Shown here one piece after another: positions 23,543-39,435 of a stretch of 44,169 bases of DNA. This stretch comes from an uncultured Bacteroidales bacterium (GTDB taxonomy: Bacteria; Bacteroidota; Bacteroidia; Bacteroidales; Bacteroidaceae). The stretch spans positions 1 through 44,169 of the forward strand of contig CACZCX010000010.1 in assembly GCA_902779875.1 (NCBI GenBank), written 5' to 3'. The first letter of the stretch is position 1. Every line of letters starts with the position of its first letter. The notes beneath the pieces are model-generated. The model was not told where the DNA came from and did no database searches. It worked only from the letters and a program-made list of their open reading frames with translations. The position numbers were made by a program, and so were the translations under genes.

Positions 23543-23876
23543 GAGGTATGGACCTTGTCTATACCCCCCAAACCCCCGGTGGGGGCTTGGTCGCTTCGCT
23601 CCTAATAGTATTGGAAAAGTTTCCAGTTGCAGGATAGTAAAACAAAACCCCGACAGCAAAGCGTTGTCGGGGTTTTGTTTTACCCGGCCGGAGGCCGGCA
23701 GAGTGAAATGGAACGAAGTGTAATGAAACGAGTTTGGGGCGCCGCCGCCCCAAACTAAAAGAATGTCGTGTACCAAATACGCAGGTAGGATCCTGTCCCG
23801 GACTTTCAAGGCCGAAGGCCAAGAAAGTCAAAAAGACCGAGCGGCGTAGCCGCGAGCCCAGCCTCCGCAAATAAAA
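23528..23876. other. Intergenic region between carB and pfkA
   Basis: This 349-base gap between convergent genes holds the right arm of the carB stop hairpin, a C5/G5 hairpin at 23568-23590 and the 243-base multi-hairpin repeat copy 1 (23616-23858). Minus-strand open frames crossing it are not supported as genes. Confidence 0.7.
23616..23858 (+). repeat. Multi-hairpin dispersed element, copy 1
   Basis: Homologous over its length to 39190-39435. It has five hairpins in order: H1 23637-23655/23665-23683 (19 bp, perfect); H2 23684-23689/23693-23698; H3 23732-23740/23747-23755; H4 23801-23829 (GACTTTC...GAAAGTC with inner GGCC/GGCC); H5 23841-23845/23849-23853. Between copies, H1 differs at four positions per arm, all compensated; H2 lacks one pair present in copy 2; H5 has a flipped central pair. 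H3 and H4 are identical. H1 is flanked by A- and T-rich arms and may terminate transcription in both directions. Identity (structured RNA or structure-recognised mobile DNA) is unknown. Confidence 0.88.
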
Positions 23877-24848
23877 TTAAATGGAGAGCACGCCCAAAAC
23901 GTGAATCAGCTCCTTATCAATCGGTTTGTCCCACTTGATGGCCCTGGAGATAGGTACGTAGACGATCTGGTCATTCTTGATTCCTACCATGATGTTGCGC
24001 TGTCCCTCGTTGAGGGCCTCGATGGCGGCAACACCCAGGCGGCTGGCCAGGATGCGGTCGTAGGCGGTAGGAGTACCGCCGCGCTGCAGGTGACCCAGGA
24101 TGGATACACGCACGTCATACTCAGGATACTCTTTGCGTACGCGGTCAGCGTAGTGCATGGCGCCGCCGTCCTTCTCCGATACGAGCACGATACTGCTGTT
24201 CTTGCTCTTGCGGATGCCGCGGCCGATGAATGTGGCCAGCTGGTCTATATCGGTAGAGTCCTCAGGGATGATGGCAGCCTCGGCTCCGGCAGCGATGGCG
24301 CTGTTCTGGGTCAGGAAGCCGGCATCACGTCCCATGACCTCAACAAAGAAGATTCGGTCGTGTGAGGTCGCGGTGTCACGTATCTTATCCACGCACTGGA
24401 CAATGGTGTTGAGTGCGGTGTCATATCCGATGGTCGAGTCGGTGCCGTAAAGGTCGTTGTCAATGGTGCCCGGGAGTCCGATTACAGGAATGTCATACTC
24501 CTTGGCGAATATCTGTGCGCCGGCAAGCGATCCGTTGCCGCCTATAACGATAAGGGCATCGATGTTGTGCTTCACGATATTCTCATGGGCTTTCTTGCGG
24601 CCCTCTGCAGTACGGAACTCCTCGCTGCGGGCTGTCTTGAGGATGGTGCCGCCACGCTGTATGGTATTACTTACGCTCTCGGTACTGAGCTCTTTGATGT
24701 CGTCATTGATGAGGCCTTCCCAACCACGGTAGATACCCTGTACTATCCAACCCTGGAATATGGCGGCTCTGGTGACGGCTCTAACACAGGCGTTCATGCC
24801 GGGAGCGTCGCCTCCGGATGTCAATACGCCGATAGTCTTGATTTCCAT
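23877..24848 (-). CDS. pfkA: 6-phosphofructokinase
   Basis: Glycolytic enzyme phosphorylating fructose 6-phosphate, 323 residues. Seen: [12 protein letters not shown] (N-terminal nucleotide loop), [28 protein letters not shown] with the catalytic aspartate, [10 protein letters not shown] and [15 protein letters not shown]. Glycines at the positions equal to E. coli Gly104 and Gly124 point to ATP rather than pyrophosphate as donor. The aspartate before Gly104 (E. coli Asp103, Mg contact) is asparagine here. It is the last of three minus-strand genes and converges on carB across the multi-hairpin repeat. A -7 box lies upstream at 24890-24897. Confidence 0.94.
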
Positions 24849-24889
24849 AATATTAAGTTTTAGTGGACTAAGAAAAATTGTTTCCCATG

Positions 24890-24897
24890 CAAAGATA
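24890..24897 (-). promoter_or_regulatory. Possible -7 box (TATCTTTG) of pfkA
   Basis: On the minus strand TATCTTTG matches the -7 consensus, 41 bases before the pfkA ATG. No convincing -33 element at standard spacing. Confidence 0.45.
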
Positions 24898-24961
24898 CGT
24901 ATTATACTCCTTGCGTGGATTTGCCGTAGAACAGAATTATGATTATTTTACCTGGAAGGGG

Positions 24962-37413: not shown

Positions 37414-38205
37414 ATGACAGACGGGTTAGTTTCCATCATAACGACTCTATACAACTCGGGCGACTTTATCGAAAGAACGATTAAGTCAGTCCTGGCGCAG
37501 ACCTACACCAACTGGGAGATGGTCATTACCGATGACTGCTCCGTTGATGACGGTCCATCGGTCGTGGAGTCCTATGCCGCGGCGGATCCCAGGATACGTC
37601 TGGTCCGTCTGAGCAGTAACGGAGGCCCCGGCGTGGCACGTAACAACTCCATAATGGAGGCCAAGGGCCAGTATATAGCTTTTCTTGACAGTGATGACAC
37701 CTGGATGCCCGATAAGCTGGAGCGCGAGCTGGAGCTTATGAAAAGCACCGGATGCGGTGTGGTCTATTCCAGCTATCTCACATGTGACGAGAATGACCGT
37801 ATAACAGGACTGGTTGAATGCAAGAACAGGGTTTGTTACTGGCGTATAGTATGTGACAACGCCATAGGTTTCCTGACTATGATGTATGACCGCAAGGTGA
37901 CGGGGCTGGTACTGCTTCCCGAGATACGCAAACGTCAGGACTGGGGCCTGAATATCCTGTTACTCAGGAAATGCCGTGTGGCTTACGGCGTTAAGAAACC
38001 CCTGGCAAGCTACCGTATACGCAATAACTCGGTATCGAGCGCCAAGTTCCCGCTCATAAAGTTCAATATTGCCATATATCATGACATACTGGGCTATTCG
38101 AGACTTAAGTCAGTGTTAACCTTCATATTCGTTTTTCTGCCCTTCTACCTGGGCAAGAAGAGTATCAACCGGTTCAAGTCATTTTTCCGCAGGAGGTACT
38201 CCTGA
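37414..38205 (+). CDS. Glycosyltransferase family 2
   Basis: GT-A glycosyltransferase of 263 residues. Seen: LVSIITTLYNSGDFIERTIKSVLAQTYTNWEMVITDDCS at the start, GGPGVARNNSIMEAKGQYIAFLDSDDTW with the metal-binding DSDD, and RKRQDWGLNILLLRKC with the ED-like catalytic region. A C-terminal hydrophobic stretch (LTFIFVFLPFYLG) may touch the membrane. It is the last gene of the exopolysaccharide group, after a gap with its own promoter-like box. Confidence 0.92.
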   Translation: MTDGLVSIITTLYNSGDFIERTIKSVLAQTYTNWEMVITDDCSVDDGPSVVESYAAADPRIRLVRLSSNGGPGVARNNSIMEAKGQYIAFLDSDDTWMPDKLERELELMKSTGCGVVYSSYLTCDENDRITGLVECKNRVCYWRIVCDNAIGFLTMMYDRKVTGLVLLPEIRKRQDWGLNILLLRKCRVAYGVKKPLASYRIRNNSVSSAKFPLIKFNIAIYHDILGYSRLKSVLTFIFVFLPFYLGKKSINRFKSFFRRRYS

Positions 38206-38270
38206 GCATTTAACTTCCGGTCTATTTCTATCTATAATTACTGAATCTAATTTCTATTTAAAATAAAAAA

Positions 38271-39188
38271 ATGAAGAAAGTATTATTTACAGCAGCTCTG
38301 GCTCTCGTTGCAGTAGCAGCCAGCGCACAGGAGCCTGACTTCCGTATGCCTATGGGCGGCGGCTTTGGCGGTTTTGGTGGTTTTGGCGGCTTTGGCGGCC
38401 AGCAGACCAATGTCAAGTTTGATGAGTATGTAGCTGCCCCCGAGGGCTTTGACAAGGAGCGTGACGGCATCAAGAAGGGTACCGTAAAGCTCATCGAGTA
38501 TCAGTCAGAGTCAGTTGGCACAACCCGTAAGGCCAATGTATATCTTCCCGCAAGCTATGACGGCAAGAAGAAGTTCAGCGTTCTCTATCTGCTCCACGGT
38601 ATCGGTGGTGACGAGTGGGAATGGATGAACGACGGTGGTGTACCCAACATCATCATGGATAACCTCTATGCCGATGGCAAGGTTGCCGATATGATCGTAG
38701 TTATGCCTAACGGCCGTGCTGCCAAGAATGATTCACGCGAGGGTGGTATGGGTTCAGCCGCTGCTTTCGGTGAGTTTGACAAGGACCTTCTGGGTAGCCT
38801 TATCCCTTACATCGAGAAGAACTTCAGCGTATATACCGACAAGGATCACCGTGCTATCGCCGGCCTTTCAATGGGTGGCGGCCAGTCTCTGAACTTTGGT
38901 CTGGGCAACCTGGACGTATTCTCATACGTAGGTGGTTTCTCATCAGCTCCCAACACCATGCGTGCCGCTCAGCTCATCACCGATGTTGAGAAGGTAAAGA
39001 AGGAGAACAAGCTCCTCTGGATGGTATGCGGTGGCGCTGACGGCCTGATCGGCAACAGCACTCAGATGAAGGCATTCTGCGACGAGAACGGAATTCCCTG
39101 CACTCTGATCAACTATCCCGATGAGGGTCACAACTTCACAGTTTGGAAGTACGGCCTCTACAATTTTGCACAACTTATCTTCAAGTAA
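38271..39188 (+). CDS. Secreted CE1-like esterase with Gly-Phe linker
   Basis: Alpha/beta-hydrolase esterase of the esterase-D/feruloyl-esterase (CE1-like) type, 305 residues. It has a signal peptide (about 1-20, ending ASAQ), a low-complexity linker of four GGF-type repeats (about residues 29-43), and the catalytic domain with Ser200 in GLSMGGG, Asp257 in GGADGL and His287 in DEGHNF. The function would be release of acetyl or feruloyl groups from plant polysaccharides, judged from the family; the precise substrate is not shown. It is a single gene between the exopolysaccharide operon and repeat copy 2. Confidence 0.9.
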
Positions 39189-39189
39189 G

Positions 39190-39435
39190 AAAGTTTCCAT
39201 CTGCACTAAGTAAAATTAAGCCCTGACAGCAAAGCGTTGTCAGGGCTTAATTTTACCCGGCCTGGAAGGCCGGCAGAGTGGAATGGAATGAAATGGAATG
39301 GAACGGGTTTGGGGCGCCGCCGCCCCAAACTAAAAAAAGGTCGTGTACCTGATACGTAGATAAGATCCTGTCCTGGACTTTCAAGGCCGAAGGCCAAGAA
39401 AGTCAAAAAACAACCGAGCCGCGAAGCGGCGAGCC
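39190..39435 (+). repeat. Multi-hairpin dispersed element, copy 2
   Basis: Same five-hairpin order as 23616-23858: H1 39210-39228/39238-39256 (19 bp, perfect), H2 39257-39263/39267-39273, H3 39307-39315/39322-39330, H4 39376-39404, H5 39418-39422/39426-39430. It also lies between convergent genes (esterase and antiporter) and starts two bases after the esterase stop. The loop of H1 (GCAAAGCGT) is identical in both copies while the stem differs. A short direct repeat AACCAGCGA follows at 39435-39455. Confidence 0.88.

Follow-up and report, generated by a model that had tools for sequence, protein, structure and literature searches.

A hairpin-rich intergenic repeat in one clade of a Bacteroidales genus

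We describe a family of non-coding DNA repeats of about 245 bp with five hairpins (H1 to H5), two copies of which lie in a 44,169-nucleotide stretch from an uncultured Bacteroidales bacterium (contig CACZCX010000010.1 of assembly GCA_902779875.1; this whole stretch is called the window). The repeat belongs to a single clade within a genus of Bacteroidales known from rumen metagenome-assembled genomes (MAGs), where its copies follow closely on stop codons, mostly between convergent genes, and in some cases occupy sites that are empty in related species. Our best reading, which we hold with moderate confidence, is that it is a non-coding interspersed mosaic repeat similar to bacterial interspersed mosaic elements (BIMEs) and miniature inverted-repeat transposable elements (MITEs), that it is folded as DNA, and that it carries a terminator-like unit, H5 with its T-run, for the gene that it abuts.

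Copy number and host range

The initial annotation of the window reported two copies and proposed a search for more; there are far more than two, and among the genomes sampled they are limited to one genus. A model of the right half of the repeat (R1, 113 positions) gives 147 matches in 16 of the 37 sampled genomes of the genus. All 113 positions are spanned by 142 of these, and four of the five partial matches are inverted end copies in genome G008 (G numbers denote genomes, L numbers copies or loci). The window's own genome has 10 matches; per genome there are 49 in G008, 22 in G019, 14 in G021, 12 in G022, 10 each in G000 and G049, and fewer in ten others, all of these counts being lower bounds, with at most 102 candidates scored per genome. 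R1 has just five base pairs and is thus nearly a pure sequence profile.

When R1 was run with stricter filters against 301 genomes of the family, positives were confined to 11 of the 21 genomes of this genus, with matches in 0 of the 280 genomes of other genera. By DNA search 11 of the 25 genomes examined from the genus had matches, G004 and G013 with one partial match each and neither with an R1 match; of 16 genomes from other families of the same order, none had any. Pattern matching in named records gave 108 stretches, 106 of them in MAGs of Bacteroidales, Bacteroidaceae or Prevotellaceae, and several of the record titles mention buffalo or yak reticulum, or RUG (rumen). The remaining two, L115 (Saprospiraceae) and L149 (Bacteroidetes), are unmatched by the profile and were taken as chance. 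In a tree of the esterase gene, which covers 30 of the 37 genomes and from which the carrier G019 is absent, one well-supported group comprises 15 carriers together with 5 non-carriers, and none of the remaining 10 genomes carries the repeat.

At gathering score Rfam finds only a tRNA in the window, and copy 1 scores at best 28.1 bits, below the required 49. The literature that we searched on repetitive extragenic palindromic (REP) sequences and BIMEs, on MITEs, on intergenic stem-loop repeats of Bacteroidetes, Bacteroidales and Prevotella, and on template-switch quasipalindromes gave no recognised description of the family. Judged from these searches we could not find it described, in agreement with the initial annotation. 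PMC8040213 reports 250 palindromic candidate RNAs, some restricted to Bacteroidetes, with which the family may overlap.

Anatomy of the repeat

The anatomy was derived from 95 distinct near-full copies, partial copies having been dropped. The order of parts is fixed: R motif, H1, H2, a purine-rich linker, H3, a second R motif, H4, H5 and the end CCGCCGGATGG. The R motif (GGTTTCCAGYTGCAC) often recurs farther to the left of copies, and over the 165 nt surrounding each left end GTTTCC occurs 0–5 times per copy, at least once in 80 of the 95, against a background of 0.07. H1 is framed by GTAAAA and TTTTAC, and its left arm is A-rich and its right arm T-rich. The pattern used to read H1, which matched 93 of the 95 copies, fixes these outer pairs and is therefore blind to variation there; copies in G049 and G051 have the outer pairs GTAACA/TGTTAC. 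H2 has a GGA triloop in most copies, the purine-rich linker resembles an additional hairpin in some, and H3 occurs in a long form (GTTTGGGGCG..CGCCCCAAAC) or a short one (GTTTCCAGAAGGAAAC). H5 has CGAG at both flanks, and some copies have the alternative end CCCGTTGTNNAAC.

Two alignments were used, A3 with 76 of the 95 copies and A2 with 47 copies chosen for the long form of H3. In A3 the GAG of the 3' flank of H5 and the C and A of its 5' flank are invariant. Copy L155 is without H1 and copy L040 is without the middle. An inverted right end, H5 and the end sequence, forms the left end of 4 of the 95 copies, all in G008, giving a longer element of about 390–500 bp; the other four of eight pattern matches to such terminal inverted repeats are unlike it.

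Genomic placement

Of the 95 copies, 54 lie between convergent genes, 18 between co-directional genes with the same direction as the element and 11 with the opposite one, 5 between divergent genes and 7 at contig edges. Convergent pairs thus account for 54 of the 88 placed copies against 53 of 437 background pairs (12%), with a nominal p of about 1e-27, nominal in that related copies are not independent. The open reading frames used for context came from a simple script, with errors mainly in the divergent class. Of the 65 copies with a right-hand gene on the opposite strand, 44 have the stop codon of that gene no more than 22 nt from H5. Between co-directional genes no preference of orientation is seen (18 vs 11, p = 0.26), so that a cis-acting form of the structured RNA proposed in the initial annotation is not supported.

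Filled and empty sites

Comparison of orthologous sites shows the repeat present in some species and absent from others. At the esterase site (30 loci) four are filled, five have only 4–6 nt between the two stop codons, two have another pair of hairpins, three have 0.6–1.1 kb of other sequence and 16 are without a visible partner gene. At the gyrB site (30 loci) six are filled (G000, G021, G051, G049, G019 and G005), with the element placed after the gyrB stop codon and ahead of an older hairpin, AAAAAAGGTNGG..CCAACC; the site is bare of the element in G010, G020 and G009. The pfkA site is filled in 1 of 30 loci, and the presumed alaS site in 3 of 30 (alaS and rpsT are tentative names given by sequence). 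In sister genome G049 the place of the element between carB and pfkA is taken by an ordinary terminator-like hairpin.

A history of insertion is thus well supported, and of the three candidates first put forward (structured RNA, bidirectional terminator and mobile DNA) inserted DNA fits best, given the filled and empty esterase and gyrB sites. The six filled gyrB sites carry five H1 sequences. The G005 copy there has the right half of the G019 copy and the H1 of the G021 copy, and this mixed parentage indicates that copies recombine.

Other hairpin-rich sequences occupy similar positions behind stop codons in element-free loci (gyrB: L278, L293, L300, L302; esterase: L223, L230, L241). Behind alaS (L310, L317, L322) there are long inverted repeats containing TATAGGGTCTC. 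Units of the ATTGAGAATTGAGAATT type adjoin terminator-like hairpins (L281, L313, L316, L321, L324, L247), at several loci on both sides and inverted.

Covariation in H1

H1 is the hypervariable part of the repeat. The 93 readable copies contain 75 distinct H1 hairpins, and three or four Watson-Crick pair types occur at each of stem positions 8 to 17. Among 1346 pair cells, 1264 are Watson-Crick, 29 are G-T, 13 are A-C and 40 are other combinations. Further copies with uncompensated stem changes had been named at the outset as evidence against selected pairing, and here the picture is mixed: the great majority of cells are paired, and 82 of 1346 are not Watson-Crick.

The covariation itself is real and extends from two copies to many. 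In the 47 aligned copies, 17 pairs show two-sided changes, 178 cells in all; shuffles average 47.6 ± 5.4, and none of 500 reached that count. With the partners slid by 1–3 columns, 14–28 two-sided cells remain. H2 says nothing about pairing, since it is invariant in these 47 rows.

The claim that such compensation argues for selected base pairing was too strong, however. The H1 of L065 is the reverse complement of the H1 of L062 over 32 nt, both in genome G021, where the match on the same strand is 13 nt; in L159 the H1 arms match up to the loop. Twenty-five pairs of H1 sequences differ at one stem pair, ten of them by a two-sided Watson-Crick change, and four of these ten are transversions without a G-T step. 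The exact inversion, the matching arms and the two-sided transversions fit template switching, for which reason compensation is weaker proof of selection than it seems; that template switching can create and maintain hairpins is argued in PMC8794818.

In 8 of the 25 single-difference pairs the change is one-sided and leads to or from G-T or A-C, as ordinary compensation would give. Among the non-Watson-Crick cells G-T exceeds A-C (29 vs 13). The loop core GC[AG]NAGC is found on the + strand in 79 of the 93 copies and reversed in 2, and we infer that the relevant fold is that of the + strand. The DNA hairpin d(GCGAAGC), with a GNA triloop, is specially stable.

The two copies in the window

Direct reading of both window copies bears out the two-copy, five-hairpin element of about 245 bp that was first described. 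Each copy has an H1 with arms of 19 nt that are 100% complementary and 9 nt apart; the loop GCAAAGCGT is the same in both, and four differences in the left arm are each matched in the right arm. The extra T-A pair of H2, the flipped G-C pair of H5 and the identity of H3 and H4 were all seen again, and both copies lie between convergent genes. The parts of the two copies and the adjoining genes are as follows (window positions).

Copy 1
23613-23876, + strand: the repeat, from the left motif to the pfkA stop codon; right end degenerate (CCTCCGCAAATAAAA)
23613-23632, + strand: left R motif, consensus GGTTTCCAGYTGCAC
23637-23683, + strand: H1, hypervariable, 19-bp stem and 9-nt loop (arms 23637-23655 and 23665-23683)
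23684-23698, + strand: H2, CCGGCC-GGA-GGCCGG
23731-23756, + strand: H3, GC-rich, long form
23773-23799, + strand: internal R motif, ATACGCAG..GG.TTCC..
23801-23829, + strand: H4, with a two-by-two internal loop and a triloop
23838-23856, + strand: H5, CGAG...CGAG flanks and a GTA triloop; terminator-like toward the pfkA end (- strand)
20300-23527, + strand: carB, left of copy 1; above the curated cut-off
23877-24848, - strand: pfkA, right of copy 1; above the curated cut-off

Copy 2
39190-39461, + strand: the repeat, filling the gap between two convergent stop codons
39210-39256, + strand: H1 (arms 39210-39228 and 39238-39256)
39257-39273, + strand: H2, with an additional T-A pair
39307-39330, + strand: H3
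39376-39404, + strand: H4
39415-39433, + strand: H5, terminator-like on the - strand
38271-39188, + strand: esterase-like gene, left of copy 2; below the curated cut-off
39462-41504, - strand: CPA2-type antiporter-like gene, right of copy 2; below the curated cut-off

The fold of the window copies is far above chance, with folding z of -6.3 to -9.6 against 100 dinucleotide shuffles (both strands, RNA and DNA energies).

Two further features stand to the left of copy 1. A perfect 19-nt inverted repeat lies over the carB stop codon (window 23502-23544), the final coding bases recurring reversed directly after the stop; it may itself be a template-switch product. The stretch from carB to copy 1 (window 23545-23612), which on the - strand reads GGAGCGAAGCGACCAAG...GGGGGGTATAGACAAGGTC, is similar to sequence that follows pfkA in G007 (L254) and is possibly a further family of 3'-end repeats.

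Terminator-like features

Toward the right-hand gene, 74 of the 84 copies that could be read have a T-rich stretch (at least 5 T in 8) behind H5, beginning about 4 nt past the stem. At the gyrB site a simple scan of the filled species shows the older hairpin to be terminator-like toward the opposite gene in 6 of 6 and toward gyrB in 1 of 6 (G021), and the terminator-like site nearest the gyrB stop codon is H5 in 5 of the 6. The older hairpin has T-runs in both directions in the bare-site genomes G010, G020 and G009. The element may therefore supply the terminator of gyrB, and a terminator role of H5 is plausible. An element-borne terminator is not needed everywhere, because the esterase site is free of hairpins in five species. 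The window copies have two terminator-like sites each, against 0.8 ± 0.9 and 0.6 ± 0.9 in shuffles. The bidirectional terminator module, another of the initial candidates, remains a serious partial account through H5; it leaves H2, H3 and H4 unexplained, as well as the hairpin-free esterase sites.

Search for a mover

Genes with a Y1_Tnp domain are present in 23 of the 37 genomes of the genus, including genomes without the element, and two carriers gave no Y1_Tnp match, G019 (78% complete, 22 element matches) and G007 (97% complete, 8 matches), both incomplete MAGs. A local REP-associated tyrosine transposase (RAYT) as mover was not supported, as no element match at E ≤ 1 was present in 30 Y1_Tnp loci. 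Most of the 11 RAYT flanks that we inspected have other palindromes, such as those of the GGGGTCAGACCCC or GAACCGTCCC types. Palindromes of the GGGGTCAGACCCC type flank RAYT genes at L191 and L197 and also bracket the gyrB hairpin at L283, L285 and L286, and these are perhaps the genuine REPINs of the genus.

No autonomous version with an internal gene was present among the fetched loci, in which the largest insert is about 90 nt; likewise no listed match points to an insert above about 0.1 kb within a copy. In a scan of three genomes with the right-end pattern, known copies or inverted ends were found at 21 of 22 places in G008, 4 of 12 in G000 and 2 of 7 in G049. A phage or plasmid origin was not upheld: the exact pattern had no match in viral contigs, and copy 1 was unmatched in phages and plasmids.

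Comparison with known repeats

Hairpin-forming intergenic repeats of limited host range, such as ERIC, RUP, BOX and NEMIS, are familiar in bacteria. Among the nearest known systems is the REP, BIME and REPIN group, mobilised by RAYT (TnpA_REP), whose members are likewise intergenic, non-coding, mosaic, hairpin-rich and placed mostly between convergent or co-directional genes and near stop codons; this placement of REPs is reported in PMC3733652. The present repeat differs in its length (about 245 bp, a few copies reaching some 500 bp), its five or more different hairpins, the hypervariable stem of H1 and the other palindromes that mostly flank the inspected RAYT genes of the genus. No REP-type GTAG or CGTC foot of a 20–40 nt palindrome was noticed by eye in the alignment, no systematic search having been made. 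With MITEs it shares small size, lack of coding capacity, dispersal, filled and empty sites and, in a few copies, an inverted right end at the left; it departs from them in that inverted ends occur in just 4 of 95 copies and that no target duplication was seen by eye and no matching transposase found. Its position between convergent stop codons, the A-rich and T-rich arms of H1 and the T-run behind H5 are those of a bidirectional intrinsic terminator, whereas three more hairpins without T-runs, a long fixed architecture across unrelated gene pairs and the occurrence of the same gene pairs without the repeat in related species are not.

Explanations

The reading that we favour, an interspersed repeat folded as DNA, would work as follows. 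Copies would have spread by insertion and would be tolerated behind stop codons, where no gene or promoter is broken and where H5 with its T-run can terminate the abutted gene. The relevant form would be the folded + strand, as single strand or cruciform, read by a putative enzyme. The sequence of H1 would turn over yet stay paired through template switching, inversion and exchange between copies, with probably some selection for H1 pairing. Several observations weigh against this scheme. No transposase or other mover tied to the repeat was found, no copy was caught moving (the material consists of MAGs only), and inspection by eye of the esterase and gyrB sites, the two with empty counterparts, showed no target duplication. 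Old insertions inherited by descent could also give the clade-limited spread (15 of 20 genomes inside the clade, none of 10 outside) and the shared sites, as could passage between species by recombination at gyrB. The terminator-like H5 beside stop codons may reflect function instead of tolerance. Any strand bias in local GC skew is weak at best (positive in 44 of 82, p = 0.03), and replication-strand bias was left unused. A more specific proposal, that the repeat is a new type of mobile DNA with a constant handle (H4, H5 and the end) and an exchangeable H1 slot, a putative enzyme inserting the folded + strand behind stop codons and swapping or inverting H1, would account for pairing and loop being kept while the stem sequence is free; we regard it as distinctly improbable.

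The strongest competitor, somewhat unlikely in our judgement, is a bidirectional 3'-end module that terminates or protects mRNA ends, H5 serving the right gene and H1 the left, with copies spread or kept because they are useful. The convergent placement (54 of 88), the closeness of right-hand stop codons to H5 (44 of 65), the T-rich stretch in 74 of 84 copies, the arm composition of H1 and the ordinary terminator-like hairpin in the carB-pfkA gap of G049 all suit such a module, as does the gyrB site, where the older hairpin faces gyrB as a terminator in just 1 of 6 filled species, H5 is nearest in 5 of 6, and the bare-site genomes have T-runs both ways. It accords poorly with the five hairpin-free esterase sites, the loss of H1 in L155 and of the middle in L040, the T-run starting some 4 nt past the H5 stem and not directly behind it, the lack of any part for H2, H3 and H4, and terminator-like sites in the window copies that barely exceed the shuffles. 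A neutral palindrome, in which template switching and arm copying during replication keep a functionless fold paired, is unlikely in our view: the inversion within G021, the arms of L159, the scarcity of G-T cells (29 of 1346) and the two-sided changes, transversions included, are what it predicts, but the polarity of the loop (79 vs 2), the kept flanks of H5 and the near-invariance of H2 exceed what arm copying gives, and the eight one-sided steps resemble ordinary compensation. Least probable of all, and very much so, is a structured RNA made from the element and acting in trans or in cis. Covariation above shuffles and strong RNA folding on both strands agree with one; against it stand the Rfam result, with no more than weak sub-threshold matches for copy 1, the absent orientation preference between co-directional genes, and the absence of the Bacteroidetes promoter word TANNTTTG from the + strand of all 95 copies. 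On the - strand this word occurs in 19 of the 95, against 2.25 in simple shuffles, occurrences that probably stem from one class of H1 loop.

Significance

With 147 matches and several orthologous sites, the family is a natural replicated data set in which selection on structure can be set against hairpin-dependent DNA errors as the source of paired changes. The 3' ends of genes in this genus appear as insertion grounds for several hairpin-rich repeat families, which bears on the prediction of terminators and small RNAs from metagenomes.

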